Below the pieces are notes generated by a model. The model was not told where the DNA came from, made no database searches, and worked only from the letters and a program-made list of their open reading frames with translations. This document shows positions 47,985 to 61,686 of a stretch of 64,000 nucleotides of DNA, in pieces. The position numbers and the translations under genes were made by a program. The DNA comes from Massilia polaris (GTDB lineage Bacteria > Pseudomonadota > Gammaproteobacteria > Burkholderiales > Burkholderiaceae_D): contig NZ_JABBGG010000003.1 of the NCBI RefSeq assembly GCF_012927275.1, positions 310,001 to 374,000 on the forward strand, given 5' to 3'. How positions within the stretch are numbered: position 1 is the stretch's first letter; each line of letters starts with the position of its first letter.

Positions 47985-48170
47985 GCCGGCCCTGAACGAC
48001 GGGCAGCACCACCACCAGGTCGGTCTCGCCGACCTGGATGTCCTGCTGGGCAAGCAATGTGGTCGCCTGACCTCGTTGCAGGGGCTGGTCGTTAAAGAAG
48101 TGCAAAGCCAGGCCGCCTGAATGCCAGCTGCCCGGCCAACCGAAGTCAGGATTCGCGATTGCATTTGCAT

Positions 48171-48339
48171 AGCTTGACAAACTGTATTTCACTGCGTATT
48201 CTACATCACATCCGATTCAATCGTGTTCGAGGCAATCTGATTAACTCGCCAAGAAAACGAACATGAACTCCAAATACGCCGCAGTAGCGGCAACCCTCGC
48301 CCTGTCCCTGTCCGCCCTCGTGACCGGCGCCCAGGCAGC
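48171..48339 (+). repeat. Imperfect duplicate of the bufA1 promoter and 5' end
   Basis: These 169 bp align with 48695-48863: TTGACA (48174-48179), 17-bp spacer, TATTCT (48197-48202), then the CGATTCAATCG core (48213-48223, outer arm degenerate), leader, start and signal-peptide codons. Differences are scattered point changes, so the duplication is not recent. It ends at GGCAGC within the signal-peptide region. Confidence 0.8.
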
Positions 48340-48391
48340 TATCGGCCGCCATACCATAACCTGCAGTACCTGTTTGAAGAATTACCTATGA
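48263..48391 (+). CDS. Chimeric small ORF: bufA1 signal peptide with new tail
   Basis: This is a 42-residue frame: [26 protein letters not shown], then IGRHTITCSTCLKNYL. The first 26 residues copy the BufA1 signal peptide. The rest is translated from what is the untranslated leader of bufA2 in the duplicate at 48338, giving a CSTC motif by chance or design. It has the promoter copy upstream. Its stop overlaps the next start (ATGA, 48388-48391), so translation could be coupled. Confidence 0.4.
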   Translation: MNSKYAAVAATLALSLSALVTGAQAAIGRHTITCSTCLKNYL

Positions 48392-48424
48392 ACCTCATCT
48401 CAACAACCCGCGATGGCCTGGCTG
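48338..48424 (+). repeat. Imperfect duplicate of the bufA2 leader and 5' end
   Basis: These 87 bp align with 50074-50159: GCTATCGGCCGCCAT, the leader, and the first codons MNLIS...GLAG of bufA2. They join directly to the bufA1-type duplicate at GGCAGC and to a redoxin fragment after GGCTGG. Confidence 0.8.
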
Positions 48425-48600
48425 GGATTAATTACCCAGTTGCGCAGGACAACCGCTACGACACCTGGGGCGCCTTCCACAATATGTACTGGCCTGCTGT
48501 GTACCTGATCGACAAGAAGGGCCGCATCGTCTACACCCACTTCGGCGAAGGCAAATATGCCGAGACCAAAGCGCAGATCCAGCGCCTGCTGGCCCAATAA
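48388..48600 (+). pseudogene. Chimeric ORF: bufA2 start fused to a thioredoxin-like tail
   Basis: The 70-residue frame begins MNLISTTRDGLAG, as in bufA2, and continues INYPVAQDNRYDTWGAFHNM, then VYLIDKKGRIVYTHFGEGKY. The latter is the C-terminal part of a TlpA/DipZ-like redoxin (cis-Pro region, then LIDxxGxIVYTHFGEG). The redox-active CxxC half is missing, so ordinary redoxin activity is not expected. It may be a scar or a novel small protein. Confidence 0.6.
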
Positions 48601-48670: not shown

Positions 48671-48750
48671 AATCGCATGCGATTGCATCGGAACAGCTTG
48701 ACAAACCGTATTTCACTGCGTATTATTAATCATATCCGATTCAATCGGAT
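48671..48750 (+). promoter_or_regulatory. bufA1 promoter with palindromic operators
   Basis: TTGACA (48698-48703), a 17-bp spacer and TATTAT (48721-48726) form a near-consensus sigma70 promoter. A perfect 17-bp dyad ATCCGATT-C-AATCGGAT (48734-48750) covers the probable transcription start, and a 14-bp palindrome AATCGCATGCGATT lies upstream (48671-48684). The core CGATTCAATCG is shared with sites near both ohrR genes. Confidence 0.75.
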
Positions 48751-48786
48751 CCGACATAATCTGCATTACTCTTCAAGGAAACGAAC

Positions 48787-49062
48787 ATGAGCTCCAAATA
48801 CGCCGCAGTAGCCGCAACCCTCGCCCTGTCCCTGTCCGTCCTCGTGACCGGCGCCCAGGCAGCCGACGCCCCGAAGCAGACCGAAAAATGCTACGGCGTG
48901 TCGAAGGCTGGCGCCAACGACTGCGCCGCCGGCGCGGGCACCTCGTGCGCCGGCAGCGCGACGGTCGACTACCAAGGCAACGCCTGGACCCTGGTCGACA
49001 AGGGCACCTGCGAAAAAATCAAGACGCCTAAGGGCTTCGGTTCGCTGAAAGAAAAAGCGTAA
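48787..49062 (+). CDS. bufA1: BufA1-type periplasmic bufferin (DUF2282)
   Basis: The protein has 91 residues: a signal peptide ([20 protein letters not shown], cleaved after AQA) and a short mature part with four cysteines (KCYG, NDCAAG, TSCAG, GTCEKI). These fit the DUF2282/bufferin family, whose cysteines are modified by a DUF692 (MNIO) enzyme to give copper-binding, exported metallophores. The ribosome site is AAGGAAA. The maturation genes bufB and bufC lie 1.4-2.3 kb downstream on the same strand, with a hydrolase and bufA2 between. A strong promoter and palindromic operator precede it. Confidence 0.88.
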
Positions 49063-49114
49063 TCGCTGCGCATCCGCTCCTTTCCGTCCAGCCCATTACT
49101 CAAGCGAATACAAC

Positions 49115-49879
49115 ATGAAAATGATCAAAATTGCAGCCCTCGCCGCCGCCATCGCCGCCCCGGCCATCGCGTCGGCGATTCCCTACGCTGTTACCGTCGG
49201 CGCCAAGAACGTGCTGCTGGTTGGCGGCTCCTATGTCGACGCCTCGTCGACCTGGCGCAATGTGCATGACCGCCTGTGGATCGACGGCTACAAAGTCACC
49301 ATCGTCCAGCAGTCGCATGACTCGCTCGACGAGAACGTGGCGGCCACCCGCGCCGCCATCGAAGCGCAAGACGGTCCCGTGGTCCTGGTTGGCCACGACA
49401 TCGGCGGCGCCGTGATCTCGATCGCCGGCACCAGCGACAAAGTGAAGGCGCTGGTGTACGTGGCGGCCATCCAGCCAGCCGTTGGCGAAAGCGTGGCGCA
49501 GCTGATGGCCTCCAAGCCAGCACTGCACAATGAACTGGAAATCGGCCGCGATGGCCGCCAGTCGATCAAGCCGCTCAAGTTCCAGGAAGTGTACGCCGCC
49601 GACATTCCGCCGAACCGCACCAACTTCCTGTCGGTGTCGCAGCCGCGCGTGTCGCCAGCGTCGCTGGCCACGCCAAGCTGGGAAGCCGCATGGCGCACCA
49701 AGCCGACCTACGCGATCGTCGCCACCGAAGACCGCATCATCAACCCCGAACTGCAGCGCTGGATGTACAAGCGCGCCGGTTCCAAGGTGACCGAGATCAA
49801 GGCCAGCCATGCACTGAACCTGGCCAAGCCGGAAGAAGTGGAAGACGTCATCAAGAAGGCCGCGCAAGCAGTCAAGTAA
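49115..49879 (+). CDS. Exported alpha/beta hydrolase within the bufferin cluster
   Basis: The protein has 254 residues with a signal peptide (MKMIKIAALAAAIAAPAIAS). The fold is of the small EstC/salicylate-esterase-like type: VLLVGGSYVDASSTW, nucleophile elbow VLVGHDIGGAV (Asp where serine esterases have Ser) and His in KASHALNLAKPEEV. It starts 52 bp after bufA1 and precedes bufA2 by about 240 bp, so it may be co-transcribed with bufA1. I know of no standard role for such an enzyme in bufferin clusters. Its substrate is unknown. Confidence 0.82.
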   Translation: MKMIKIAALAAAIAAPAIASAIPYAVTVGAKNVLLVGGSYVDASSTWRNVHDRLWIDGYKVTIVQQSHDSLDENVAATRAAIEAQDGPVVLVGHDIGGAVISIAGTSDKVKALVYVAAIQPAVGESVAQLMASKPALHNELEIGRDGRQSIKPLKFQEVYAADIPPNRTNFLSVSQPRVSPASLATPSWEAAWRTKPTYAIVATEDRIINPELQRWMYKRAGSKVTEIKASHALNLAKPEEVEDVIKKAAQAVK

Positions 49880-49916
49880 GCACCGCGCAAGCGTCGCGGC
49901 CCGGCAAACCGGCTTG

Positions 49917-49963
49917 TTTGTATCCGAGTTTGTCTGTCCCGGCAGTACATGTGGCGATACAAA
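49917..49963. promoter_or_regulatory. Inverted repeat upstream of bufA2
   Basis: TTTGTATC (49917-49924) and GATACAAA (49956-49963) are perfect 8-bp arms, about 160 bp before the bufA2 start. This may be a regulatory dyad or a weak stem after the hydrolase gene. It is unlike the CGATTnAATCG sites. Confidence 0.3.
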
Positions 49964-50121
49964 ACCCGCCCATGGCAGATATAAGCAAGACACAGTGCGC
50001 TCGTAAGCTGTAACACATGCGGCCGGTTCGCATCCGCCGCAGGCAGGGAGCGTTATTTTTTCGGCATGGGGCCGCTATCGGCCGCCATGCCATAACCCGC
50101 AGTACCTTTTTGGAGTAACCT

Positions 50122-50397
50122 ATGAACCTCATCTCGAAAACCCGCGTTGGCCTGGCTGGCGCAGCGGCACTGATCGCCCTGGCATCCATGGGCGCATCGA
50201 CCACGGCCTTCGCCGCCGACGCGCCTGAAAAGCCAACCCGCTGCTACGGCGCCAACAGCTGCAAAGGAAAAGGCCTCTGCGCTACCGCGAAGCACGACTG
50301 CAAGGGCCTGAACGAATGCAAGGGCCAGGGCGTCCTCGCCAAGACCCCGACCGAATGCAAGGCAATGGGCGGCTCGCTCACCGAGCTGGCTTCCTAG
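50122..50397 (+). CDS. bufA2: BufA2-type periplasmic bufferin
   Basis: The protein has 91 residues: a signal peptide (MNLISKTRVGLAGAAALIAL, cleaved after AFA) and a mature part with six cysteines (TRCYG, NSCKGKGLC, HDCKG, NECKGQG, TECKAMGG). This Cys-Lys-Gly-rich pattern is that of the BufA2 branch of bufferins. It lies 62 bp before bufB. The separate leader suggests its own promoter or processing, and the same leader is duplicated at 48338-48424. A likely role is copper or other thiophilic metal buffering in the periplasm after Cys modification. Confidence 0.88.
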   Translation: MNLISKTRVGLAGAAALIALASMGASTTAFAADAPEKPTRCYGANSCKGKGLCATAKHDCKGLNECKGQGVLAKTPTECKAMGGSLTELAS

Positions 50398-50405
50398 TCC
50401 TCTGG

Positions 50406-50425
50406 CCCCCCGTGCAAGCGGGGGG
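50406..50425 (+). terminator. GC hairpin between bufA2 and bufB
   Basis: CCCCCCG (50406-50412) and CGGGGGG (50419-50425) form a 7-bp stem with loop TGCAAG, followed 13 bases later by a short T-run (TTTTT). It is likely a partial terminator or mRNA stabiliser that keeps bufA2 more abundant than the maturation enzymes. Confidence 0.5.
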
Positions 50426-50459
50426 CTACGCCCGCGCATTTTTCCTAAAAAGGTGCATC

Positions 50460-51317
50460 ATGTCTGCGAAGTCACTACCACCCTCTTTCCACGGCTATGG
50501 CCTCGGCCTGCGCCGCGAGCATTACGCCAATTTCCTCGAGACCAACGTGCCGGTCGATTTTGTCGAGGTCATTTCCGAAAATTTCATGGTCGCCGGCGGC
50601 CAGCCGCGGCATATTCTGCGCCAGGTGCGCGAACGCCATCCGGTGGCCCTGCACGGGGTGTCGATGTCGATCGGCTCGGCCGACGGCCTCAATCCCGATT
50701 ACCTGAAACGCCTGAAGGCGCTGGTCGACGAGATCGACCCGCTGTTTGTCTCCGACCACCTGAGCTGGTCGCGCATCGACAACTTTAATTCGCACGACCT
50801 GCTGCCAGTCCCCTATACCATCGAAGCGCTCGATATCGTGTGCGCCCATATTTCGATGGCCCAGGACACGCTGGGCCGCGCCATGCTGTTCGAGAACCCG
50901 TCCAGTTATCTCGCCTTTGACGGCGCCGTGATGACCGAATGGGAGTTTTTGGCCGAGATGTCGCGCCGCACCGGCTGCGGCCTGCTGCTGGACGTGAACA
51001 ACGTCTTCGTCAGCGCAACCAACCATGGCTTCGACCCCTACGCCTTCCTGGCCGGGATTCCGGCTTCAAAAGTACGCCAGATCCACCTGGCCGGCCATAC
51101 CAGGGGCGCCGAGCTGTTGATCGACACCCACGACAGCCCCGTCTGCGCGGACGTCTGGTCGCTGTACGCGCACGCCGTTTCCCTGCTGGGCCCGGTCGCA
51201 ACGATGATCGAGCGCGACGCCGACATTCCGCCGCTCGAAGACCTGATGGCCGAACTGGACACCGCGCGCGCCATCGGCGCCGCCGGCCTGGCCGCACGCA
51301 GCAAGGAGGCGGCATGA
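50460..51317 (+). CDS. bufB: BufB, MNIO-family (DUF692) bufferin-modifying enzyme
   Basis: The protein has 285 residues from ATG 50460; the longer frame overlaps bufA2 and is rejected. The DUF692 TIM-barrel shows the expected metal-ligand segments: VDFVEVISENFM, VSDHLSWSR, FENPSSYL, LLLDVNNVFVSATNHGFDPY and IHLAGHTRG. By family knowledge it is a multinuclear non-heme iron oxidase that converts bufferin cysteines to thiooxazoles in the cytoplasm before export. Its stop overlaps the bufC start (ATGA), so it is translationally coupled to its partner. Confidence 0.92.
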   Translation: MSAKSLPPSFHGYGLGLRREHYANFLETNVPVDFVEVISENFMVAGGQPRHILRQVRERHPVALHGVSMSIGSADGLNPDYLKRLKALVDEIDPLFVSDHLSWSRIDNFNSHDLLPVPYTIEALDIVCAHISMAQDTLGRAMLFENPSSYLAFDGAVMTEWEFLAEMSRRTGCGLLLDVNNVFVSATNHGFDPYAFLAGIPASKVRQIHLAGHTRGAELLIDTHDSPVCADVWSLYAHAVSLLGPVATMIERDADIPPLEDLMAELDTARAIGAAGLAARSKEAA

Positions 51318-52066
51318 GGCTCGCCGACATGCAGCGCGATTTCCGCGCCTTCCTGAGCACCGCCTCGGTCGATGCGGCCAGCCGCCTGGCTGTCGACGGC
51401 GCCCCCGGCCTGGCAGTCTACCAGAACAATTACCGCGCCCAGCTGGTCGGCGTGCTGGAAGAAGCCTATCCGCACCTGCGCCGCTGGATCGGCGGCGACG
51501 CCTTCCACAACCTGGCCATCACCCATATCGACAGCTATCCGCCGCAGGCGTGGACGCTGGACCTCTACCCCGGGCAGTTCGAGCGCACGCTGGTCGCGCA
51601 ATATCCGAAGAACCCGGACCTGCACGAACTGGCCTGGATCGAATACACGCTGTCGGACGTCTTTGTCGCGCAGGACGCCGCGCCGCTGGCGCCGGCCAAG
51701 CTGGCCGACATCGACTGGGAAAGCGCGCGCCTGCTCGTGGCCCCGTCGCTGCGCACGCGCGCCGCCACCACCAACGCCGAACAGATCTGGTCGGCGCTGT
51801 GGAACGACAGCGTCTCTCCCGAAGGCGAGATGCTGGCGCAGCCGGGCGGGTACATCATATGGAGACGGGGCTTTACCTCCTCGCTCAACCAGGTCGATGC
51901 GCTGGAACTCGAAGCGCTGCTGCACCTGCGGCACAACGGCAGCTTTGCCACGCTGTGCGACCTGCTGGTCGAGCGCCTCGGCGACGAGGCGGGCGTAGCC
52001 CGGGCCGGCGAGCTGCTCGCCAACTGGCTTAGTAACGAAATGATCACCGGGGTCGACGCAGCCTGA
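51314..52066 (+). CDS. bufC: BufC, DUF2063-family partner of BufB
   Basis: The protein has 250 residues (MRLADMQRDFRAFLSTASVD). The N-terminal half is the DUF2063 helical domain (GLAVYQNNYRAQLVGVLEEA, YPHLRRWIGGDAFHNLAITH). The C-terminal half is a winged-helix-like domain (GYIIWRRGFTSSLNQVDALE). Such proteins act as substrate-recruiting partners of MNIO enzymes, binding the precursor leader. It overlaps bufB by 4 bp. The next gene follows after 40 bp. Confidence 0.9.
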   Translation: MRLADMQRDFRAFLSTASVDAASRLAVDGAPGLAVYQNNYRAQLVGVLEEAYPHLRRWIGGDAFHNLAITHIDSYPPQAWTLDLYPGQFERTLVAQYPKNPDLHELAWIEYTLSDVFVAQDAAPLAPAKLADIDWESARLLVAPSLRTRAATTNAEQIWSALWNDSVSPEGEMLAQPGGYIIWRRGFTSSLNQVDALELEALLHLRHNGSFATLCDLLVERLGDEAGVARAGELLANWLSNEMITGVDAA

Positions 52067-52106
52067 CCGCCGCGTCACCCCTACTTAACCCGAGGAGAAG
52101 AACACC

Positions 52107-53174
52107 ATGAACGAAACCCTGCCCACCCGCCGCCGCTTCCTGTTTTCCGCCGCCGGCGTTGCCGGCCTGGCGCTGGGCGCCGCGCCGCTCGCCGGCGCCG
52201 CGCCAGCCAAGAGCGGCAAGTACCTGAAGCCGCCGGTGCGCGTGCTGAGCAACCCGCAGCCGCTGGGCCCGATCAAGCAGGTGGAAACCGACCTGCTCGA
52301 CATCGGCTACTACGAAGCCGGCCGCCCCGAGGAAGGCCGTCCGGTCATCCTGCTGCACGGCTTCCCTTACGATATCCACAGCTTCGCCGATGTGGCGCCC
52401 ATTCTGGCGGCTCAGGGCTACTGGGTGATCATTCCGCACCTGCGCGGCCACGGCAGCACCCGCTTCCTGGACGCCGCCACCCCGCGCTCGGGCCAGCAGG
52501 CCGCCATTGGTCAGGACGTGATCGACCTGATGGATGCGCTGCACATTCCCGAAGCGGTGCTGGGTGGCTACGACTGGGGCGGACGCGCCGCCTGCGTGGC
52601 GGCCTTGATCAAGCCCTCGCGCGTGGTCGGCCTGGTGTCGGTCAACAGCTACCTGGTGCAGGACATCGCCAAGGCCGCCTTGCCGCTGGCGCCGCCGGTC
52701 GAACGGGGCTTCTGGTACCAGTTTTACTTCACGACCGAGCGCGGCCGCGCCGGCCTGACCAAGAACCGCGACGATATCGCGCGCCTGATGTGGGAAGGCA
52801 ACTCGCCATCATGGCGTTTCGACGGCCCGATGTTCGCCCGCTCGGCCAAGTCGTTTGACAATCCGGATTACGTGGAAGTGGTGATCCACTCCTATCGCCA
52901 CCGCCTGGGCCTGGCGCCCGGCTACCCGGCCTATGAAGCGCTCGAAAAGAAGCTGGCCGCGGTACCGCCGATCAGCGTGCCGACCATTACCCTCGATGGC
53001 GAGGAGGACGGCGTGGTGGCCGCCACCGACGGCACGGCCTCGGCCGCCAAGTTCAGCGGCAAGCGCATCCACCGCAAGGTGGCCGGCGCTGGCCACAACT
53101 TGCCGCAGGAAGCGCCTAAAGCCTTTGCCGACGCGATCATCGAGCTGGTGCGCGCCGGGGCATGGCGCACCTGA
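52107..53174 (+). CDS. Tat-exported alpha/beta hydrolase (epoxide-hydrolase type)
   Basis: The protein has 355 residues with a clear twin-arginine signal (TRRRFLFSAAGVAGLALGAA). Fold motifs are LLHGFPYDIHSFADV, a nucleophile elbow GGYDWGGRAA with Asp, and His in VAGAGHNLPQEAP. It starts 40 bp after bufC with the ribosome site GAGGAG, so it is probably in the bufferin operon. With 21198, 45108, 46581 and 49115 it is one of five Asp-elbow hydrolases in the window. The substrate is unknown. Confidence 0.88.
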   Translation: MNETLPTRRRFLFSAAGVAGLALGAAPLAGAAPAKSGKYLKPPVRVLSNPQPLGPIKQVETDLLDIGYYEAGRPEEGRPVILLHGFPYDIHSFADVAPILAAQGYWVIIPHLRGHGSTRFLDAATPRSGQQAAIGQDVIDLMDALHIPEAVLGGYDWGGRAACVAALIKPSRVVGLVSVNSYLVQDIAKAALPLAPPVERGFWYQFYFTTERGRAGLTKNRDDIARLMWEGNSPSWRFDGPMFARSAKSFDNPDYVEVVIHSYRHRLGLAPGYPAYEALEKKLAAVPPISVPTITLDGEEDGVVAATDGTASAAKFSGKRIHRKVAGAGHNLPQEAPKAFADAIIELVRAGAWRT

Positions 53175-53200
53175 TGATGGCCCCGCTCGGCCAGCAGCGG

Positions 53201-53662
53201 CTACTTGTCCTGCGTGTGCCGGACGAGGCTGTCGCGCAGGGTGACGACGGCTGTCTGAATTTTGGGGATGTCCTCGGCAGTGAGTCCGGAAGCCTTGATG
53301 AGGTTCACATCGAGCCCCTTCTCGCGCAGCGCCCGGCCGGCGTCCGTCAGGCTGACCAGCACCTGGCGCTCGTCCGTGGTACTGCGCTTCCGGTTCAGGT
53401 AGCCGAGCGACTCCAGTTTCTTGAGGATCGGCGTCAGGGTGTTGGACTCGAGGAACAGTTTCTCGCCCAGGCTGCTGACCGTCTGCATGTCTTCCTCCCA
53501 CAAAGCGATGATCGCGATGTACTGGGTGTAGGTCAGGCCCAATTCCTCAAGGATGGGACGGTAGGCCCGGCCGAAGGCCAGGTTGGCGGAATAGATCGCA
53601 AAGCACAGGAAATCGGCGAGCTTCGGGCTCTTTGGATCTACGGGGTCGGTCGGGTTCATCAT
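53201..53662 (-). CDS. ohrR: OhrR-type MarR regulator 1 (organic peroxide sensor)
   Basis: About 153 residues from the first of two ATGs at 53662. Near the N-terminus LADFLCFAIYSANLAFGRAY carries the conserved reactive Cys of OhrR. It is followed by the winged-helix domain (LFLESNTLTPILKKLESLGY, DERQVLVSLTDAG). Oxidation of that Cys by organic peroxides releases DNA in the family. It is convergent with the hydrolase at 52107 and divergent from doxX, with a dyad between. A close paralogue is at 60289. Confidence 0.88.
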   Translation of the reverse strand: MMNPTDPVDPKSPKLADFLCFAIYSANLAFGRAYRPILEELGLTYTQYIAIIALWEEDMQTVSSLGEKLFLESNTLTPILKKLESLGYLNRKRSTTDERQVLVSLTDAGRALREKGLDVNLIKASGLTAEDIPKIQTAVVTLRDSLVRHTQDK

Positions 53663-53711
53663 CGTCCAGTTGATCAGAGGGCAATGCCTCACATACTCAA
53701 ATTATATATCG

Positions 53712-53735
53712 AATGCGATGTAATCGGTTCGCATT
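53712..53735. promoter_or_regulatory. OhrR-like operator between ohrR 1 and doxX
   Basis: AATGCGA (53712-53718) and TCGCATT (53729-53735) are inverted, with CGATGTAATCG at 53716-53726. A minus-strand -10 TATAAT (53701-53706) lies alongside. The layout matches the ohrR 2 promoter at 60789-60816. Confidence 0.65.
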
Positions 53736-53781
53736 GACGCCCCACATTTAACACTCTTTCTACTTTGATTGGCACATTTTT

Positions 53782-54267
53782 ATGAAAACCACTAATTCGC
53801 CTTTGGCCTCTCTTGCTTTTCCGCCTAATAGCAAGGCGATTCCGACCGCGACGTTTTCACGTGTTTTGCCCGATGCGCTGCTGCTGCTGGTGGCCCGTTT
53901 TGGCATTGCCACCATTTTCTGGATGGCCGGCCGCACCAAGGTGCAGGGCTTCACCATACGGCCGCTAACGTATGAACTGTTCCGCTCCGAATACGCGCTG
54001 CCAGTGATTTCGCCCGAGCTGGCGGCCCAGCTGGCCACCGGCGCCGAGCACCTGCTGCCGCTGCTGCTGGTGCTCGGCCTGTTCACCCGCCCTGCCGCCC
54101 TGGCGCTGCTGGGCATGACGGCCGTGATCCAGCTGCTGGTGTACCCGTCGGCATGGCCGGCGCACCTGTCCTGGGCCGGCCTGCTGCTGCCGCTGATCGC
54201 CAAGGGCGGCGGCGCCTGGTCGCTCGACAGCCTGATCGCCCGCCTGCGTTCGGGAGCATCCAAATGA
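53782..54267 (+). CDS. DoxX-family membrane protein
   Basis: The protein has 161 residues with about four hydrophobic helices ([64 protein letters not shown]). It includes the DoxX-typical lines [12 protein letters not shown] and [13 protein letters not shown]. It is an integral inner-membrane protein, often encoded with bufferin and DUF692 genes; a redox or quinone-linked role is inferred only. Divergent from ohrR 1. The ribosome site before ATG 53782 is weak. Its stop overlaps the start of the acetamidase remnant (ATGA, 54264-54267). Confidence 0.85.
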
Positions 54268-55352
54268 GCAAGGCCGTCGCAGCGCGCGCCAGCGTGGGCC
54301 TGCTGCGGGTCGACAGCTACACCAACGGCCTGATCGGCCCCAGCCAGCCGATGCTCGGACCGCTGGCCGACGGCGCCAGGCTCATTACCGGCACGCCCTG
54401 GGCTGCTGGGGACCGATGATCACGTCCGCCTTCCAGGCTGCGATCCGCTGCAACAACTGCGGAGCCGAAGTGAGCGCCTTCCGCTTCGCCCACGGCTACG
54501 TGATCGTGCTCGATGCGGAGAACCAGGTCAGCCTGACCGTCAACCAGCAAGTGGCCGACCGGCTGGCGGGCAAGGCCTCGGCCATGTCGGCGCTGCCCGA
54601 ATTCGCGGCCCAGCACTGGATCCTGTCGCTGGCGCGCGCCGACATGCCGGGCGTGGCCGCGCACATGCGTCCCTTCCTCGGCAACATCCCCCCTCGCGCG
54701 ACCTGCCCGATTCGCACAACTGCGCCGATTTCGGCCAGTACCCGGTCGGCGCGTCGCACCGCTACGGCATGACGCACGACGAACTGCACGCCGCCAAGAC
54801 CGACGGCCACATGGACACCTACTCGGTGCGTGACGGCTGCATCCTGATCTGCCCGGTCAAAGTGCCGGGCGCCGGCGTCTACATGGGCGACATGCACGCG
54901 CAGCAGGGCAATGGCGAGATCGCCGGGCACGCCACCGACGTCTCAGGCGAGACCGAGCTGACAGTGGAAGTCATCAAGTGGCTCACTCAGGACGGCCCGG
55001 TGCTGCTGCAGAACTGGACGACCTGCCGCCAATGGCGCGACCGATGAATGCCGGACAGCGGCGCCGCATGGAAGAACTGGGCGCGTGCTGGGGCCAGAAG
55101 GAAATCGAGGCGAGTGGACCGCTGACCTTCATTGGCAGCGGCGCCAAACTGAACGCGGCCACCGAGAATGGCTTGCAGCGCGCAGCCAAGGCCACCGGCC
55201 TGGCGTATGACGAGGTGCTGAACCGGGCTACGATCACCGGCTCGATCGAGATCAGCAGGCTGCCGGGGACGGTCAGGGTCACGCTCCTGTGCCCGTTCAC
55301 GCTGGACCGGATGGGGATCGGGCACTTGGTGCGGGCGAAGTACGAGCTGTAA
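54264..55352 (+). pseudogene. Acetamidase/formamidase family gene, multiply frameshifted
   Basis: Pieces in different frames line up with one protein: YTNGLIGPSQPMLGPLADGA; GCWGPMIT then RCNNCGAEVSAFRFAHGYVI; ADMPGVAAHMRPFLGNIP; DSHNCADFGQYPVG; THDELHAAKTDGHMD with ICPVKVPGAGVYMGDMHAQQ; and finally GPLTFIGSGAKLNAATENGL. At least three indels, two at C/G runs, and an internal loss of about 60 residues after MITSAFQ are needed to explain it. Intact enzymes release ammonia from short amides. Translational overlap with doxX remains. Confidence 0.8.
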
Positions 55353-55421
55353 CAACCGAGCATGGCGGAAAAACGTGCGGCGAGCGTTTCCGCCATGCGG
55401 CCCGGGGTAGGCGATGCGTGA

Positions 55422-55889
55422 TCAGGGCGCCGATCCGAACTCCACGGCCAGTTGCCTCATCTGCGTGCGGACGCTCACCAGCTCCTCGAGCATGCTGTCG
55501 AGCTCGGCATTTGATGCGCCCTGGAGGTCCCGGCTCGCGCGTTCGAGCTTTTGCATCCCTGCGAGCAGGCCCTTGAAGCGCGCATCCTGTCCAGCGGACA
55601 CCCTCTTTTCGGCAATAAATTGCTCGGTCATGCTTGCGGCCCACGCAACTTCCTCATCGCGCTTGGCGCCTTTCGGTGCGTCCACGCCAGTCAGCCCGCT
55701 CACCAGCAGGGTCAGGTCGGTACCCAGCCGGCCGTAACCGTAAATGACTTTCCCCAACCTTTCGTCATCCACATCGACCTCGAGCGGGCCCGCCACGATG
55801 GATCCTGGGACGCCGGTGGCAGGCACTGTTGCCGTTTGCGCAAAGCAATAGCTTGAGAGCGACAGCAAACCGAGTAGTAGCACTTTCAT
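55422..55889 (-). CDS. Hypothetical exported protein
   Basis: About 155 residues from ATG 55889. A signal peptide (MKVLLLGLLSLSSYCFAQ) precedes a mature, probably helical protein (RDEEVAWAASMTEQFIAEKR, LLAGMQKLERASRDLQGASN). I do not recognise it. It is monocistronic on the minus strand between the acetamidase remnant and an AT-rich intergenic region. Nothing nearby indicates its role. Confidence 0.7.
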   Translation of the reverse strand: MKVLLLGLLSLSSYCFAQTATVPATGVPGSIVAGPLEVDVDDERLGKVIYGYGRLGTDLTLLVSGLTGVDAPKGAKRDEEVAWAASMTEQFIAEKRVSAGQDARFKGLLAGMQKLERASRDLQGASNAELDSMLEELVSVRTQMRQLAVEFGSAP

Positions 55890-55904
55890 CTTAGCCGGGT
55901 CCAT

Positions 55905-56490
55905 CCATCTGGATTAATCAGCCATTATCCGTGACGGTGCAACGTTGGATCGCTTACGCCATGGCGCTTACAAACTTGTGCTCGATGGGGATAGCTATCG
56001 TGCCCTGTCACCTGCGTCAGAAGCGTCCAAACCGCCAACCGAAAAGGGGCGCAAGGCGGCGCCGCTATGATTGTTGACTAACGATATAAATCGTTTATAT
56101 CGTTAATAAATATGAGGGGAGAGATTCGTTCCGGACCAAGCCGGCGTGAGTTACCCCTCTTTACCTTAGTCGGCTTCCGGGTTGGCTCCCAAAGCCCGAC
56201 TTCAGACAATCTGGGGCGCTTCCGACAACTCTTGGAACGACCGCTGTCCCCTTACCTGCCTCCCATCACTTTAAAATTGGCTGGCCGCTTCTTTTTACAC
56301 TGCAGACGTTGCTTTTTATGCCATTTTTAATCAAAACCCTTACTCAGGCAAGATTATCTGCTAGTCTCATTGCTGCGAGCACTTCGAAAAAATATCGTCT
56401 CGATTGGCTATTTCATTGCCTTGCGATCTGACGATTGATAGTCCAATTGCCAGTTAGGTGACATCTCACTGACTATGTAACTGGTGAAAA
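55905..56490. other. AT-rich intergenic region before the GGDEF-EAL gene
   Basis: No confident gene is present. A 72-codon frame at 56112-56330 has no ribosome site and is doubtful. The region holds the 25-bp dyad at 56080-56104, described separately, and falls steadily in GC toward the gene at 56491. Confidence 0.4.
56080..56104. promoter_or_regulatory. 25-bp palindrome overlapping a promoter
   Basis: AACGATATAAA and TTTATATCGTT are perfect 11-bp arms separated by TCG. TTGACT (56074-56079) just upstream could be a -35 box with a -10 inside the right arm. A related sequence ATCGTTTATACGAT lies at about 33741, at the other accessory region. It resembles an XRE or antitoxin operator, but no such gene adjoins. 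Confidence 0.5.
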
Positions 56491-59400
56491 ATGAACTCAG
56501 CTCCATTCCCGCATAACGAGAAAGAACGTCTTGCAGCACTGCAAGCGCTCGACATTCTTGACACGTCCCCCGAAGCCGAATTTGATGTATTGGTACGCAT
56601 CGCATCGATGACCTGCGGAGTTCCAATCTCATTGATCAGTTTGGTCGATACCGAACGACAATGGTTTAAAGCCAACATAGGTTTACCCGGCGTGTCCGAA
56701 ACACCACGCGATGTCGCATTCTGCGCGCACGCCATTCTGGGCAATGACCTGTTTGAAGTACCAGACGCGACGCAAGATAGTCGTTTCGCCGACAATCCCC
56801 TCGTCGCCGGCAACCCAGATATTCGTTTTTATGCCGGCGCACCGATTGTCTTGAGCGATGGCAATCGTGTCGGCACGCTATGCGTCATTGACCGGCAACC
56901 CCGGCAACTGGATGACAAGCAACGCGAGATTTTGCGCTGCTTGGCGCTTGCTGCAGCCGCATCGCTGGAAGGTCGACGTGCTGTGCGTCTGCTTCAACAA
57001 GCCACGCAAAATTTACAAGTCAGCGAAGATCACTTGCGCCAATTGTATGAAGCCACACCTGCCATGTTGCACTCGATCGATGCGCAAGGGAGAATGAAGG
57101 CTGTCAGCAATACATGGCTGTCTAGACTCGGGTATACCCGCGACGAAGTTCTGGGCCATTTTTCTTCAGAATACTTGACAAAAGAATCGCGTGAGTATGC
57201 GAAAAATGTGGTGTTACCCACATTTTTCAAAACAGGCCGCTGCGAAAAAATTGAGTATCAAATGGTCGCCAAAGATGGCGCAATAGTTGACGTGCTTTTG
57301 TCCGGCATTCTCGAATACGATGCAGAAGGTAAGCCCTATCATAGCCTCGCGATCATTGAAGATGTCACGCAACGCCGTATCATCGAGCGAAAGTTGGAAC
57401 AGAAGCATCAACGCTTGGCGCAAATTGTTGACAGCACCAACTCGGGTACGTGGGAATGGAATGTCCAGACAGGGCAAGTTGTTTTCAACGAGCGCTGGGC
57501 TGAGATCATTGGGGAATCCTTAGCCAATCTTGCTCCTTTATCGATTCAAACATGGATTGATAACACGCACCCTGAAGACTTGAAGCGTTCTGGCGCGTTG
57601 CTTGATTTACATTTTGCAGATCAAAACGTGCGTTATGAATGCCAAGTGCGCATGCGTCACCGTGATGGGCATTGGGTCTGGGTACGTAGTCGCGGTCGCG
57701 TCATGTCCTGGGATGCCGACGGCAAACCGGAATGGATGTTTGGTACCCATGAAGATATAACGGAACGTATTACTGAGCAGCAGGCATTGCAAAAAGCAAG
57801 GGAGCGCGTGTCTCTGGCGACAGACTCTGGACATATCGGTATTTGGGATTGGGATATCGCCGCCAACACTTTAGTTTGGGATCCATGGATGTATCACTTG
57901 TACGGTGTTACTCCACGCGACGAGGTCGCGCCGTACGACCTATGGTCGCAACACGTTCATCCAGAAGACCTCAAACAGGCTGAACAGGCATTGCAGGATG
58001 GTATATCCGGCGTGAAGCCGTTCGACACAGAATTTCGTATCGTTTTGGACGACGGCAGCATTCACCACCTACACGGCACAGGACGCGTCACCCGAGATGA
58101 TGCAGGACGCCCTCTGCGCATGGTTGGTGCCAATTGGGATGTCACCGAGGCGCGACGCTTGACTTCAGAATTGGCTGAGCAACACGAGCTGCTTCAAGTC
58201 ACCTTGCGCTCCATTGGGGATGCCGTCATCACTACCGATGCCGAAGGTAATGTAACCTGGCTCAACCCAGTGGCAGAACGCATGACGGGATGGCTTGCCT
58301 TGGAAGGACTGGGTAGGCCGTTAAGCCAAGTTTTTCGTATCGTCAATGAAGAAACACGCAAACCGACCGAGAACCCGGTTTTAGCCTGCCTGGAGCAGGA
58401 CAAGATTGTTGGTTTGGCCAACCACACCATACTGATTTCACGCAATGGTGATGAATTCGGCATCGAATATTCCGCCGCACCAATTCGCAATGCAAAAGGC
58501 GTGTTACTAGGTGAAGTGCTGGTGTTCCATGATGTCACCGAACAGCGTCGCCTTTCAAATGAAATGAGTTATCGTGCTACCCATGATGCACTCACGGGAC
58601 TGACCAATCGTGCAGAGTTTGAAACGCGGCTAAGCAGAACTTTACAAAAAGCGCATGAAGACCGCAGCGAACATTTTTTGCTCTACATCGATCTCGACCA
58701 GTTCAAACTGGTGAATGATTCTTGCGGGCATGTGATCGGGGATCAGCTTTTGCAACAAGTGTCCAAGTTGCTGTCATATTCTGTGCGTGATCGCGATACC
58801 TTGGCGCGGTTAGGCGGCGATGAGTTCGCCATCATTCTGGAACATTGCACTGCCGCACCAGCACAACGGGTGGCGCAACAGATTTGCGAACGGATGTTTG
58901 ATTTCCGCTTCATGCATGATGGCAAGCGGTTCCGGATCGGTACGAGTATTGGTTTGGTGCCAGTAGACAGCCGGTGGGCAACGACGGAATCCATCATGCA
59001 AGCTGCCGATACATCCTGTTATGCGGCAAAAGAAGCGGGACGTAATCGCGTGCATGCATGGTTTGACTCAGATTTGGCGATGCGGACACGGCACGGTGAA
59101 ATGCAATGGACTAACCGTATCGGCAAAGCATTGGATGAAGACTTGTTCGTGCTGTTTGCCCAACGGATTACACCACTAAACGATGCACCACAAGGCGTGC
59201 ATGCCGAAGTGCTGCTGCGTATGATTGATAGTGACGGCACTCTGATTCCTCCTGGTGCATTCTTGCCTGCTGCGGAACGATTTCATCTGGCGTCACGCAT
59301 TGACCGGTGGGTATTCAAACGTGCCGTCGATTGGATGAAAGCGCTGCCATCTTTGGATGCGATTGAAAACATCAGCATCAATTTGTCCGGTCAATCCGTT

Positions 59401-59868
59401 GGTGACCGCGCATTTCATCGATGGGCAATTGAACTATTGAATGAGGCTGGTTCCAAGCTTTGTCAGAAGCTGTGCATCGAAATAACAGAAACGGCAGCCG
59501 TGACTAACCTTGCTGATGCAGCATTGTTTATCGAACAGGTACATGCAGTAGGTATCAAAGTAGCGCTTGATGACTTTGGCGCGGGCGCATCTTCTTTCGG
59601 ATACTTGAAATCCTTGCCAGTCGATTTCTTGAAAATAGACGGGCAATTCATCCGCGATTTGGTAAGCGATCCGCTGGACGAGGCGTCCGTTCGTTGCTTC
59701 ACGGACGTCGCCAAGGTTGTAGGCGTTAAGACTGTTGCTGAATTTGTCGAAAATCAGGAAGTCCTTGAGCGATTACGCGTGATTGGCGTTGATTATGCAC
59801 AAGGATTTTTATTGCATCGACCTGCGCCGATTGACGAAATTTTGACAGCAACAATAGAGGTTAGTTAA
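56491..59868 (+). CDS. GAF-PAS(x4)-GGDEF-EAL c-di-GMP enzyme
   Basis: The protein has 1,125 residues. GAF (about 20-160: PISLISLVDTERQWFKANIG, GTLCVIDRQPRQL) is followed by four PAS/PAC units to about 690. GGDEF has an intact site ([11 protein letters not shown] near 774). The EAL domain has EVLLR near 905, ITETAAVTNLADAA, ALDDFGAGASSFGYL and FLKIDGQFI. Both synthase and phosphodiesterase sites look plausible, though EVLLR differs from canonical EALLR. No membrane segment is seen, so it is cytoplasmic. GC and codon use are visibly lower than in neighbours, consistent with horizontal acquisition. Confidence 0.93.
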   Translation: MNSAPFPHNEKERLAALQALDILDTSPEAEFDVLVRIASMTCGVPISLISLVDTERQWFKANIGLPGVSETPRDVAFCAHAILGNDLFEVPDATQDSRFADNPLVAGNPDIRFYAGAPIVLSDGNRVGTLCVIDRQPRQLDDKQREILRCLALAAAASLEGRRAVRLLQQATQNLQVSEDHLRQLYEATPAMLHSIDAQGRMKAVSNTWLSRLGYTRDEVLGHFSSEYLTKESREYAKNVVLPTFFKTGRCEKIEYQMVAKDGAIVDVLLSGILEYDAEGKPYHSLAIIEDVTQRRIIERKLEQKHQRLAQIVDSTNSGTWEWNVQTGQVVFNERWAEIIGESLANLAPLSIQTWIDNTHPEDLKRSGALLDLHFADQNVRYECQVRMRHRDGHWVWVRSRGRVMSWDADGKPEWMFGTHEDITERITEQQALQKARERVSLATDSGHIGIWDWDIAANTLVWDPWMYHLYGVTPRDEVAPYDLWSQHVHPEDLKQAEQALQDGISGVKPFDTEFRIVLDDGSIHHLHGTGRVTRDDAGRPLRMVGANWDVTEARRLTSELAEQHELLQVTLRSIGDAVITTDAEGNVTWLNPVAERMTGWLALEGLGRPLSQVFRIVNEETRKPTENPVLACLEQDKIVGLANHTILISRNGDEFGIEYSAAPIRNAKGVLLGEVLVFHDVTEQRRLSNEMSYRATHDALTGLTNRAEFETRLSRTLQKAHEDRSEHFLLYIDLDQFKLVNDSCGHVIGDQLLQQVSKLLSYSVRDRDTLARLGGDEFAIILEHCTAAPAQRVAQQICERMFDFRFMHDGKRFRIGTSIGLVPVDSRWATTESIMQAADTSCYAAKEAGRNRVHAWFDSDLAMRTRHGEMQWTNRIGKALDEDLFVLFAQRITPLNDAPQGVHAEVLLRMIDSDGTLIPPGAFLPAAERFHLASRIDRWVFKRAVDWMKALPSLDAIENISINLSGQSVGDRAFHRWAIELLNEAGSKLCQKLCIEITETAAVTNLADAALFIEQVHAVGIKVALDDFGAGASSFGYLKSLPVDFLKIDGQFIRDLVSDPLDEASVRCFTDVAKVVGVKTVAEFVENQEVLERLRVIGVDYAQGFLLHRPAPIDEILTATIEVS

Positions 59869-60288
59869 TCGTTGTTGCAAACTTCATTGGCTAAGGAATA
59901 ATCTTGCAATTTCAATTGCAGACTTAATGTTACTATATCGCGATTTGTCCGCTATGGTTTGATAGCCGGACATATTAAGCGTTATATTTTTATTGTTTTT
60001 ATGACTGCGAATGGGCCGACTGTTGTCGATTGTACTCGACTGCGGGCCATCCACTAAAAGTGGCTTCCTTGCCGTTCGCAGCATCCCGGCGCCGCTTCGG
60101 CTCGAGACCAAACGTCGGTCCCCCTGGGTAGCAATTTCACCGAAAAACGGCATTCGTGTCGAAAACGAAGTTGCAAAAACCGTCGAAATCGATCATTCTT
60201 GCAACCCAAGTTTGAGCTCCTGAAATCATTGGCCAACGTGGCGCCATTACGCCGAAAATGAGTGGAGCCTTAATGCCGGAAATTGACA
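59869..60288. other. Intergenic region without a gene
   Basis: AT-rich to about 60010, then mixed composition. No coding frame, RNA gene or clear repeat was found between the GGDEF-EAL stop and the ohrR 2 stop. Confidence 0.4.
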
Positions 60289-60747
60289 CTAGCCCTGCTG
60301 GGTCGACCTGACCAGGCTGTCACGCAGCGCCACCACCGATTGCTGCAGCTTCGGAATCTCATCCGCCGCCAGGCCGCAGACAGCGAACAGGTTCACGCCC
60401 AGCCCCTTTTCGCGCAGCAGCCGCCCGGCGTCGGTCAGGCTGACCAGCACTTGGCGCTCGTCGGCTTCCGCGCGGCGCCGCTCCAGGTAGCCCATCCCTT
60501 CCAGCTTTTTCAGGATCGGCGTCAGCGTGTTTGACTCGAGAAACAGTTTTTCGCCCAGGCTGCCGACGGTCTGGCTGTCATCTTCCCACAAAGCAATAAG
60601 CGCGATGTATTGGGTATAGGTCAGGCCCAGCGATTCGAGGATCGGGCGGTAGGCCTTGCCGAAGGCCAGGTTGGCCGAATAGACGGCGAAGCACAGGAAA
60701 TTCGACAGTTTCGGCGTGTCGGGGTCGTGCGGGTCGGGACGTTTCAT
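60289..60747 (-). CDS. ohrR: OhrR-type MarR regulator 2
   Basis: The protein has 152 residues. FLCFAVYSANLAFGKAYRPI carries the peroxide-sensing Cys, followed by LGLTYTQYIALIALWEDD and LFLESNTLTPILKKLEGMGY. It is a close paralogue of the regulator at 53201. It has an additional Cys (FAVCGLAADEIP), which could allow a disulphide as in two-Cys OhrR proteins. It is divergent from the ohr gene at 61238 with about 490 bp between. The ribosome site is AAAGAGG. Its own promoter contains a 15-bp dyad. Confidence 0.9.
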   Translation of the reverse strand: MKRPDPHDPDTPKLSNFLCFAVYSANLAFGKAYRPILESLGLTYTQYIALIALWEDDSQTVGSLGEKLFLESNTLTPILKKLEGMGYLERRRAEADERQVLVSLTDAGRLLREKGLGVNLFAVCGLAADEIPKLQQSVVALRDSLVRSTQQG

Positions 60748-60788
60748 GGTGAGGCCTCTTTATGACAAGACTGGCTTGCAAGGCCTCC

Positions 60789-60816
60789 ATTATACATCGA
60801 ACGCGATTTAATCGCG
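60789..60816 (-). promoter_or_regulatory. ohrR 2 promoter with OhrR-like dyad
   Basis: The minus -10 TATAAT is at 60789-60794. The perfect 15-bp dyad CGCGATT-T-AATCGCG is at 60802-60816, just upstream where the spacer lies. The shared string TCGAACGCGATTTAATCG parallels TCGAATGCGATGTAATCG at ohrR 1, pointing to one operator type. Confidence 0.7.
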
Positions 60817-60923
60817 ACTGCTTTACATTGACGCATATCTCAATAGGTCCACTGCGGGGCGCGTAGACTGCGCTTGACAGCGGATAAGACCGGCACTGGA
60901 GTGCCGATAACAGGAGGTGTTGG

Positions 60924-61028
60924 ATGCGAAAGATGGTCATCATGGCGCCGGCTGGATTTGTGTAGCGTAAGATCCAGTCCCGTATGGCGCGGCGCGCCAC
61001 GACCAGCAAGAAAATGCGCGGTTTCTAG
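60924..61028 (+). pseudogene. Small basic ORF with an internal amber codon
   Basis: AGGAGG lies 6 bp before ATG 60924. The frame reads MRKMVIMAPAGFV, amber (60963-60965), then RKIQSRMARRATTSKKMRGF and stop at 61026-61028. A TGG-to-TAG change would explain it as a 34-residue membrane-active or basic small protein. A strong terminator follows 9 bp later, so the unit has the full shape of a gene. Confidence 0.35.
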
Positions 61029-61036
61029 GCCGCAAC

Positions 61037-61068
61037 AAAGCTCCCACAGGGTATCCGGTGGGAGCTTT
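61037..61068 (+). terminator. Rho-independent terminator
   Basis: AAAGCTCCCAC (61037-61047) and GTGGGAGCTTT (61058-61068) pair over 11 bp with a 10-base loop and run into TTTTTT on the plus strand. The arms are symmetric enough to act in both directions. The only upstream plus-strand candidate is the small ORF at 60924. Confidence 0.8.
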
Positions 61069-61185
61069 TTTCATGTCCGTTGGCCTCTCCCACCCACGCA
61101 CTCCCCCGCCGCAGTTTTCCGAAAATCCCGAAAAAAAGCGCTTGACACCACCTCTCGGATGCCTCAAGACTAAATCAGTCGCACA

Positions 61186-61196
61186 CGATCAAATCG
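61186..61196 (+). promoter_or_regulatory. OhrR-like half-degenerate site before ohr copy 2
   Basis: CGATCAAATCG differs by one base from the CGATTnAATCG core and lies about 40 bp before the ohr start. A -35-like TTGACA is at 61143-61148. This is the expected place for OhrR to control ohr. Confidence 0.5.
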
Positions 61197-61237
61197 CAAG
61201 CTAAATAAAAACCCACCCATTTTTATAGGAATACATC

Positions 61238-61686
61238 ATGAGCAAAATCGACAAAGTCCTGGTCACCGGCAAAACCCACAGCACTGCGAACGACGCAGGC
61301 GGCCTTTCCCGCAGCCCGGAAGGCAAGCTGAACATCAACCTGAGCGGCACCGGAGGCGCACGCGAGCACGTGTTTGCCGACATCCCCCCCACCCGACCGC
61401 CGAACAATTGTTCGCCGGCGCCTGGTCCGCCTGCTACAGCGCCGCAGTCGGCCTGGTGGCAAAGGAAAAGAATGTGGTTCTGCCTGCGAATACGGCTATC
61501 GATATCGAAGTCGACCTGGGCGTGACGGGTAATGCCTACTTCCTGCAAGCGCGAATCAATCTCGTGGCACCCGGGCTTGACCAGGAAGTGGCTTACGCAA
61601 TCGCGCACGAAGCTGACCAGATTTGCCCGTACTCGAAAGCAGTTCGCGGCAACATTGGCGTGGTGCTGAAGGCAATCACCGCCTAG
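61238..61686 (+). pseudogene. ohr: Organic hydroperoxide resistance protein with a C7-tract frameshift (ohr copy 2)
   Basis: MSKIDKVLVTGKTHSTANDA and REHVFADIP read in frame 1. HPTAEQLFAGAWSACYSAAV (first Cys) through ICPYSKAVRGNIGVVLKAIT (second Cys) read in another. The shift falls on seven consecutive C at about 61384-61390. One C fewer or more in the right direction gives an intact Ohr of about 149 residues. Ohr reduces organic peroxides using lipoyl-dependent thiols in the cytoplasm. Everything else is intact, so slipped-strand variation or a sequencing error is as likely as true loss. ohrR 2 is divergent upstream. Confidence 0.85.

Follow-up and report, generated by a model that had tools for sequence, protein, structure and literature searches.

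The bufferins have recently been defined as a family of metal-binding peptides, and their control, in the parts of the literature available to us, has so far been described as running through metal-responsive extracytoplasmic function (ECF) sigma factors. A survey of MNIO clusters mentions sigma factors and NrsF for the Buf1 type; neither OhrR nor MarR occurs in the available sections of its main text (PMC12452194). By quantitative reverse-transcription PCR, the Caulobacter genes CC3255 and CC3252 change at most twofold with t-butyl hydroperoxide, according to the accessible part of that report (PMC3511200). Excerpts of two further studies describe how OhrR meets its targets: its footprint on ohr runs from -39 to +48, or 87 bp, in Pseudomonas aeruginosa (PMC4999210), and its sites in Chromobacterium violaceum, which contain CTATT-A-AATAG beside another candidate repeat, overlap the -10 and -35 elements (PMC3469484). 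Here we analyze a window of 64,000 nucleotides from Massilia polaris (assembly GCF_012927275.1, contig NZ_JABBGG010000003.1, positions 310,001 to 374,000, forward strand) in which a bufferin gene cluster headed by bufA1 lies next to a gene for an OhrR-type regulator. The sequence indicates that the bufA1 promoter is very probably a repressed OhrR target, with two operators bracketing a sigma-70-type promoter.

An earlier note on this DNA had proposed, from a dyad shared among these promoters, that the bufferins here belong to an organic-peroxide regulon, and the proposal gains support in silico from held-out models, independent genomes and a matching spacing of operator pairs. Our literature search, which covered few subscription journals and many papers in excerpt, found no paper joining bufferins and OhrR, and the 27-bp OhrR-type operator motif reported here was not met in the OhrR literature so searched.

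Results

The sigma-70-type promoter of bufA1 occupies 48698-48726 on the plus strand, with TTGACA at 48698, a 17-nt spacer and TATTAT ending at 48726 (11 of 12 consensus matches), as the earlier note had read it. Two such promoter sites occur in the window against 1.5 expected, the second being a relic copy of the first. A predicted OhrR-type operator lies on either side. The left one (48672-48698, core 48680-48690 with one mismatch) ends on the first base of the -35 element; the right one (48729-48755, core 48737-48747) holds a perfect 17-bp palindrome at 48734-48750 and covers the likely transcription start, where the note had put its bufA1 dyad. The two dyads, at 48680 and 48737, stand 57 bp apart start to start, flanking TTGACA-N17-TATTAT on both sides, and the operator pair covers 84 bp (48672-48755). 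The sigma-F motif GTAACC-N16-CGAA has no exact match in the window with spacers of 15 to 17, and none with two or fewer mismatches between 48382 and 50114; a sigma-F promoter for bufA1 was rejected, as no matching motif is present there.

All five dyads that the note had listed are real, with exact copies of the core CGATTNAATCG at 48213, 48737 and 60804 and one-mismatch copies at 53716 and 61186, but its set was incomplete: it had overlooked a sixth, one-mismatch dyad at 48680-48690, the core of the left bufA1 operator. It had also called the 48213-48223 dyad a duplicate of the bufA1 site. This dyad lies inside a 185-nt duplication (48155-48339 versus 48679-48863, 87% identity) and is therefore not independent evidence. 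The operator around it (48205-48231), which on alignment is a duplication relic, scores 25.7 bits versus 31.9 in the intact copy and has lost its left partner. Beyond the 185-nt copy the bufA2 leader is duplicated as well (48334-48425 versus 50070-50159, 89%) and fused to what appears by eye to be a thioredoxin-type C-terminal fragment in the open reading frame 48388-48600; the whole of 48155-48600 looks like a rearrangement relic.

How much can the bare core tell us? The window has nine cores with at most one mismatch, whereas shuffled versions average 2.30 (standard deviation 1.67, largest 8), and none of 100 shuffles reached nine; three of the nine (22231, 22391 and 42471), each with one mismatch, gain no operator score with the extended 27-bp motif. 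The earlier note had called for a full-genome scan and had named a frequent core lacking promoter enrichment as what would count against it. In the 4,522,469-base genome the exact core is rare, with eight sites and none for the reversed-pattern control: three lie in the window, two on contigs C2 and C10 next to genes for OhrR paralogues with ohr close by, and three elsewhere, so that bufA1, its relic and ohr/ohrR genes account for five of the eight, and the best matches of the covariance model described below likewise fall at ohr/ohrR or bufA1. The three elsewhere (C1:365306, C5:76666 and C28:45706) were rejected as operators, none reaching 13 bits in locus scans. With up to one mismatch, 181 genome sites are found versus 18 for the reversed control; cores of this kind are so common that the one-mismatch core alone was rejected as a criterion and an extended motif was required. 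The bare core is less telling in Paraburkholderia sp. LEh10, where 16 exact copies (control 2) include three seen at ohr/ohrR; exact cores were rejected there as regulon markers, six of the eight fetched as loci having no ohr, ohrR or bufferin match, and five of the 13 remaining cores were covered by the model scan alone.

The extended motif was learned from ohr/ohrR operators exclusively. A 27-bp matrix of 17 sites, none from a bufferin locus and seven from this genome (including the window sites 60804 and 61186), places 48737 first in the window at 33.3 bits, followed by 60804 (training), 48213, 48680, 61186 (training) and 53716 (17.2 bits), with the next site at 10.9. The window maximum of 300 column-permuted versions is 21.2 bits, and 200 first-order Markov windows of 64 kb yield 11 sites of at least 17 bits in total (highest 24.9), versus six in the real window. 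A sequence-only covariance model built from the same 17 sites, with 150 of 1386 first-look candidates scored in the genome scan, has the right bufA1 operator as its best match in the whole 4.52-Mb genome (E-value 0.0024) and finds the left one at E 0.045. Its matches at E<0.5 make 11 distinct sites: the bufA1 pair, the relic, three at ohr/ohrR on C2, three at ohr/ohrR on C10, ohrR2 and ohr2. Seven of these had served as training sites; the four new to the model are the bufA1 pair, the relic and C10:21299. The next matches are C28:45705 and the ohrR1/doxX site (each E 1.27), then C25:45144 (E 1.54).

A second 27-bp matrix comes from another family of the same order and comprises 119 distinct operators at 62 ohr/ohrR loci, selected for scoring at least 20 bits under the 17-site matrix (consensus ATCGCATGCGATTAAATCGCATGCGAT). 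It ranks the six window sites first to sixth: 48737 (31.9 bits), 48680 (28.6), 48213 (25.7), 60804 (25.0), 61186 (21.9) and 53716 (20.2). The seventh-best site in the window scores 6.9 bits, so that the operators at 53716 and 61186 are upheld there despite their mismatched cores.

Exact pairs of dyads are rare: 399 genomes of the order yielded no match, and 294 genomes of the window organism's family yielded two, one at the divergent ohr/ohrR promoter of G196 and the other at the G201 bufferin operon. A scored model was therefore needed. In the family, covariance-model matches at E<=0.02 occur in at least 24 of the 294 genomes, a lower bound set by stricter filters and by the 25 candidates scored per genome. 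They fall in 28 distinct loci, counting bufA1 and its relic once: 19 ohr/ohrR loci (four of them training loci), two bufferin loci (this genome and G201, both untrained) and seven that are none of these (G011, G199:C2, G154, G166:C11, G281, G053 and G209). In the second family, matches occur in at least 66 of 299 genomes, and 62 of 64 inspected loci, some overlapping, among the matches listed carry ohr or ohrR, L251 and L276 being those that do not. Close operator pairs in that family are 57 bp apart in 51 of 56 cases, 56 bp in three and 63 bp in two. The bufA1 pair has the 57 bp usual for the class, and the ohrR1/doxX, ohrR2 and ohr2 sites are single. On these matches, a 27-bp, usually paired operator of putative OhrR type is common to two families of one order.

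Some operators of this class lie beside other genes. Those at L030:2598 (Duganella guangzhouensis) and L191:1507 (G199) precede a small protein, exported by eye, with a similar leader, a possible regulon member. Genes that by eye resemble msrA lie between ohr and ohrR on contig C10 (L148:6247-6768) and apparently beside the G011 operator (L199 near 1507), a possible tie to methionine sulfoxide repair.

We then compared 79 named loci of bufA1 relatives; 178 of the 294 family genomes have a match, and the best 30 places of these were taken as loci. The composite subtype comprises 22 loci that combine bufA1 and bufA2 with one or two alpha/beta hydrolase genes and a bufB of at least 70% identity; further loci are possible, and L146, this genome's second bufferin cluster, is included although no bufA2 match was found there. 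An operator stands at the first gene of the operon in four of the 22: the window, G201, G166 and LEh10. The G201 pair (7843 and 7900 in L142) is exact at both sites and spaced by 57 bp; G166 has a pair on contig C3 (4903 and 4960 in L143), also 57 bp apart, and a third site at 4419 before bufA1; the LEh10 pair (7838 and 7892 in L026) has one mismatch at each site and a spacing of 54 bp. The operon begins with bufA1 in the window and LEh10 and with doxX in G201 and G166. Next to the G201 bufferin operon lie divergent ohr and ohrR genes that have two operators of their own; G166 has an ohr/ohrR pair, likewise with two operators, on a different contig. In the LEh10 genome scan the bufferin promoter (C202) is among the three best loci, together with ohr (C232) and ohr/ohrR (C22, which supplied training sites); no locus besides these does better than E 0.86. 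In the remaining 71 bufA1 loci (1.03 Mb) no site reaches 15 bits, and in Massilia sp. CF038, G204 and G184, where ohr/ohrR lie near bufA1, operators were found at ohr and none at bufA1. As judged from this distribution, the OhrR-type operators at bufferin operons are a lineage-limited rewiring.

Other promoters in this set carry other elements. By eye, TGTATC..GATACA occurs at promoters of composite loci from Pseudomonas and genus g40 and at the bufA1 promoters of other relatives (L109-L113, L025, L027 and L029), where it probably belongs to another regulator, and the family's non-composite bufA1 loci often show TGTAACC..CGAATTA, resembling the sigma-F motif. In L146 an ohr gene follows abh2 on the same strand, with an apparent response regulator (by eye) further on. 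Pieces of a gene resembling bufA2 lie close to the C2 ohr/ohrR cluster (L147:7268-7428), seemingly in two reading frames.

Two candidate sensors are encoded in the window. OhrR1 (53201-53656, minus strand) and OhrR2 (60289-60747, minus strand) are MarR-type regulators matching PDB entry 2pfb, an OhrR, at E 1.3e-33 and 6.9e-37, and for both the top three PDB sequence matches are 2pfb, 2pex (OhrR) and 1z91. The Vibrio-type OhrR model NF052638 (cut-off 200) was not reached by either protein (127.8 and 125.9 bits), and we therefore use the label OhrR-type. In the alignment both have the N-terminal cysteine, and OhrR2 has a C-terminal one that OhrR1 lacks. LCFAxYS..YRPIL..LTYTQY of the window proteins aligns with 2pfb, and the N-terminal cysteine and nearby tyrosines in it are what we take to be the reactive residues. 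Four close paralogues exist in the genome (OhrR1, OhrR2 and those on C2 and C10). Three, namely OhrR1, the C2 protein (both by alignment) and the C10 protein (by eye), have no C-terminal cysteine. The helix-turn-helix segment FLESNTLTPILKKLE is common to 16 of 17 close OhrR members in an alignment that left out the C10 and C3 paralogues, the G166 protein having Y for F; it differs in two distant C1 paralogues, where the surrounding sequence yielded no site reaching 13 bits.

The neighbors of these regulators also differ. An ohr gene lies beside the C2 and C10 paralogues, and ohr2 beside ohrR2, where one candidate operator stands at ohrR2 (60796-60822, core 60804-60814) and another before ohr2 (61178-61204, core 61186-61196). 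The ohr2 gene (61238-61686, plus strand), for an organic hydroperoxide reductase, is interrupted, in two open reading frames in different frames; its downstream piece scores 82.9 bits against TIGR03561 (cut-off 88.85), and 89.2 bits when the genome is searched. Both ohr2 and the C10 ohrR paralogue (G000:C10:19727-20151) are split over two frames and may be pseudogenes or assembly errors. OhrR1 has no ohr beside it and adjoins the bufferin cluster, with a weaker putative operator between ohrR1 and doxX (53708-53734, core 53716-53726).

The cluster itself, on the plus strand, comprises bufA1 (48787-49062, a bufferin precursor with DUF2282; PF10048, E 7.6e-25), the alpha/beta hydrolase gene abh1 (49115-49879, PF12697), bufA2 (50122-50397, a second bufferin precursor; NF050166 at 82.6 bits, cut-off 60, no Pfam match), bufB (50460-51317, the MNIO maturase; NF050167 at 380.5 bits, cut-off 310), bufC (51314-52066, a DUF2063 protein; PF09836) and a second alpha/beta hydrolase gene, abh2 (52107-53174, PF00561). 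The doxX gene (53782-54267, plus strand, PF07681; 51.2 bits with the HvfX model, below its cut-off of 80) is inside the bufferin operon in most related loci and divergent from ohrR1 here. The components that mark a bufferin gene cluster, BufA precursors, MNIO BufB, DUF2063 BufC and DoxX, are all matched.

Discussion

Why would a metal-binding peptide answer to a peroxide sensor? The argument from sequence is that the bufA1 operators are like those of ohr/ohrR, that such operators are nearly exclusive to these loci in the genome, that three other genomes also have them at bufferin operons and that the predicted OhrR sensor cysteine is intact. The arrangement would work as follows. With their starts separated by 57 bp, the two 27-bp operators (consensus ATCGnATnCGATTnAATCGnATnCGAT) would place one protein at the -35 element and another over the likely start site; two flanking operators fit repression by two OhrR dimers, which in the reduced state would occupy the pair and keep RNA polymerase out. 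Oxidation of the N-terminal cysteine by an organic hydroperoxide would then release OhrR from the DNA, and bufferin synthesis would rise together with ohr and ohrR. Repression and redox release at bufA1 are inferred by analogy with the OhrR family. The chemistry further suggests that copper capture might limit the copper-driven breakdown of hydroperoxides to radicals in the envelope. The operators suggest that bufferin production may answer peroxide damage and not metal alone.

Several observations weigh against this reading. Eighteen of the 22 composite loci lack an operator at the bufferin promoter, and this genome's own second bufferin cluster (G000:C1:388000-403000) has no OhrR-type operator. 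The exact paired pattern with its two family matches has a nonzero reversed control (one match, G042), and the ohrR1/doxX site, with its E of 1.27, is weak genome-wide. The neighborhood count speaks for the reading, with an ohr (at least 40% identity) or ohrR (at least 50%) in 7 of 22 composite loci versus 0 of 71 others (Fisher 1.8e-5), but the test ignores shared ancestry, and one of its ohr queries was drawn from a locus that it counts. It is also not certain that bufA2, bufB and bufC are controlled from the bufA1 promoter: a 242-bp gap with no reported plus-strand terminator-like site precedes bufA2, and such a site lies between bufA2 and bufB (50418-50435; nine on both strands against 5.7 expected).

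The operators could be bound by proteins of the OhrR clade whose inducer is general thiol stress, such as hypochlorite, sulfane sulfur or copper-derived oxidation of thiols. The missing C-terminal cysteine in three of the four close paralogues would allow a different redox chemistry, and sulfane sulfur is reported as an OhrR signal in P. aeruginosa in the accessible part of one study (PMC9495516); the same operators, however, stand at ohr, the classical organic-hydroperoxide target, in two families, and we consider this explanation unlikely. That the dyad belongs to another regulator of both ohr loci and bufA1, OhrR binding elsewhere, is quite improbable. It would accommodate the difference between GATT-N-AATC here and AATT-N-AATT, the OhrR core proposed in other bacteria in the available text of PMC4999210, but the operators recur at ohrR and ohr promoters of two families with nearly constant spacing, the adjacent OhrR proteins share FLESNTLTPILKKLE, and OhrR footprints in C. 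violaceum contain the similar CTATT-A-AATAG, although the authors, in the portion available, also offer ATAGTGCACTAT as operator (PMC3469484). We give equally little weight to inherited baggage, in which a promoter taken from an ohr locus, or old wiring, would leave OhrR control without physiological value; the lineage-limited distribution is what it would predict, yet the operators are kept in four genomes with different first genes, and the duplicated relic, by comparison, has lost its left operator and weakened its right one. Chance resemblance, to which the abundance of one-mismatch cores might point, has next to no probability given the held-out scans, the simulated windows and the empty 1.03 Mb of other bufA1 loci.

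If OhrR control of bufA1 holds, bufferins could be called up by lipid-peroxide stress, which would point to a role in blocking metal-driven radical chemistry. More tentatively, and with rather less than even confidence, we propose that composite bufferin operons are an arm of organic-hydroperoxide defense, with metal capture as the means; the OhrR regulation, the adjacency of ohr/ohrR and the ohr gene that ends the second bufferin cluster would all follow. Bufferins would then keep copper from converting lipid hydroperoxides of the envelope to radicals, as Ohr reduces those same hydroperoxides.

The OhrR-ohr systems of Xanthomonas, Bacillus, P. aeruginosa and C. violaceum likewise pair a MarR-type sensor with one or two cysteines with a neighboring ohr and palindromic operators overlapping the promoter, and the P. 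aeruginosa footprint, as given in the accessible text, is close in length to the bufA1 operator pair (PMC4999210). They differ in that the core here is CGATT-N-AATCG with outer ATCG/CGAT arms, not AATT-N-AATT, and in that the targets here include a bufferin operon. The bufferin clusters of Caulobacter crescentus, under ECF sigma-F, share the DUF2282 precursor, MNIO maturase, DUF2063 protein and DoxX, whereas the bufA1 promoter here is of sigma-70 type, is flanked by OhrR-type operators and lacks a sigma-F motif. A further parallel is OspR of P. aeruginosa, described in the same partly available source as an OhrR homologue that governs a defense gene other than ohr (PMC4999210); its target is gpx, a glutathione peroxidase gene, whereas the predicted target here is an operon for metal-binding peptides.

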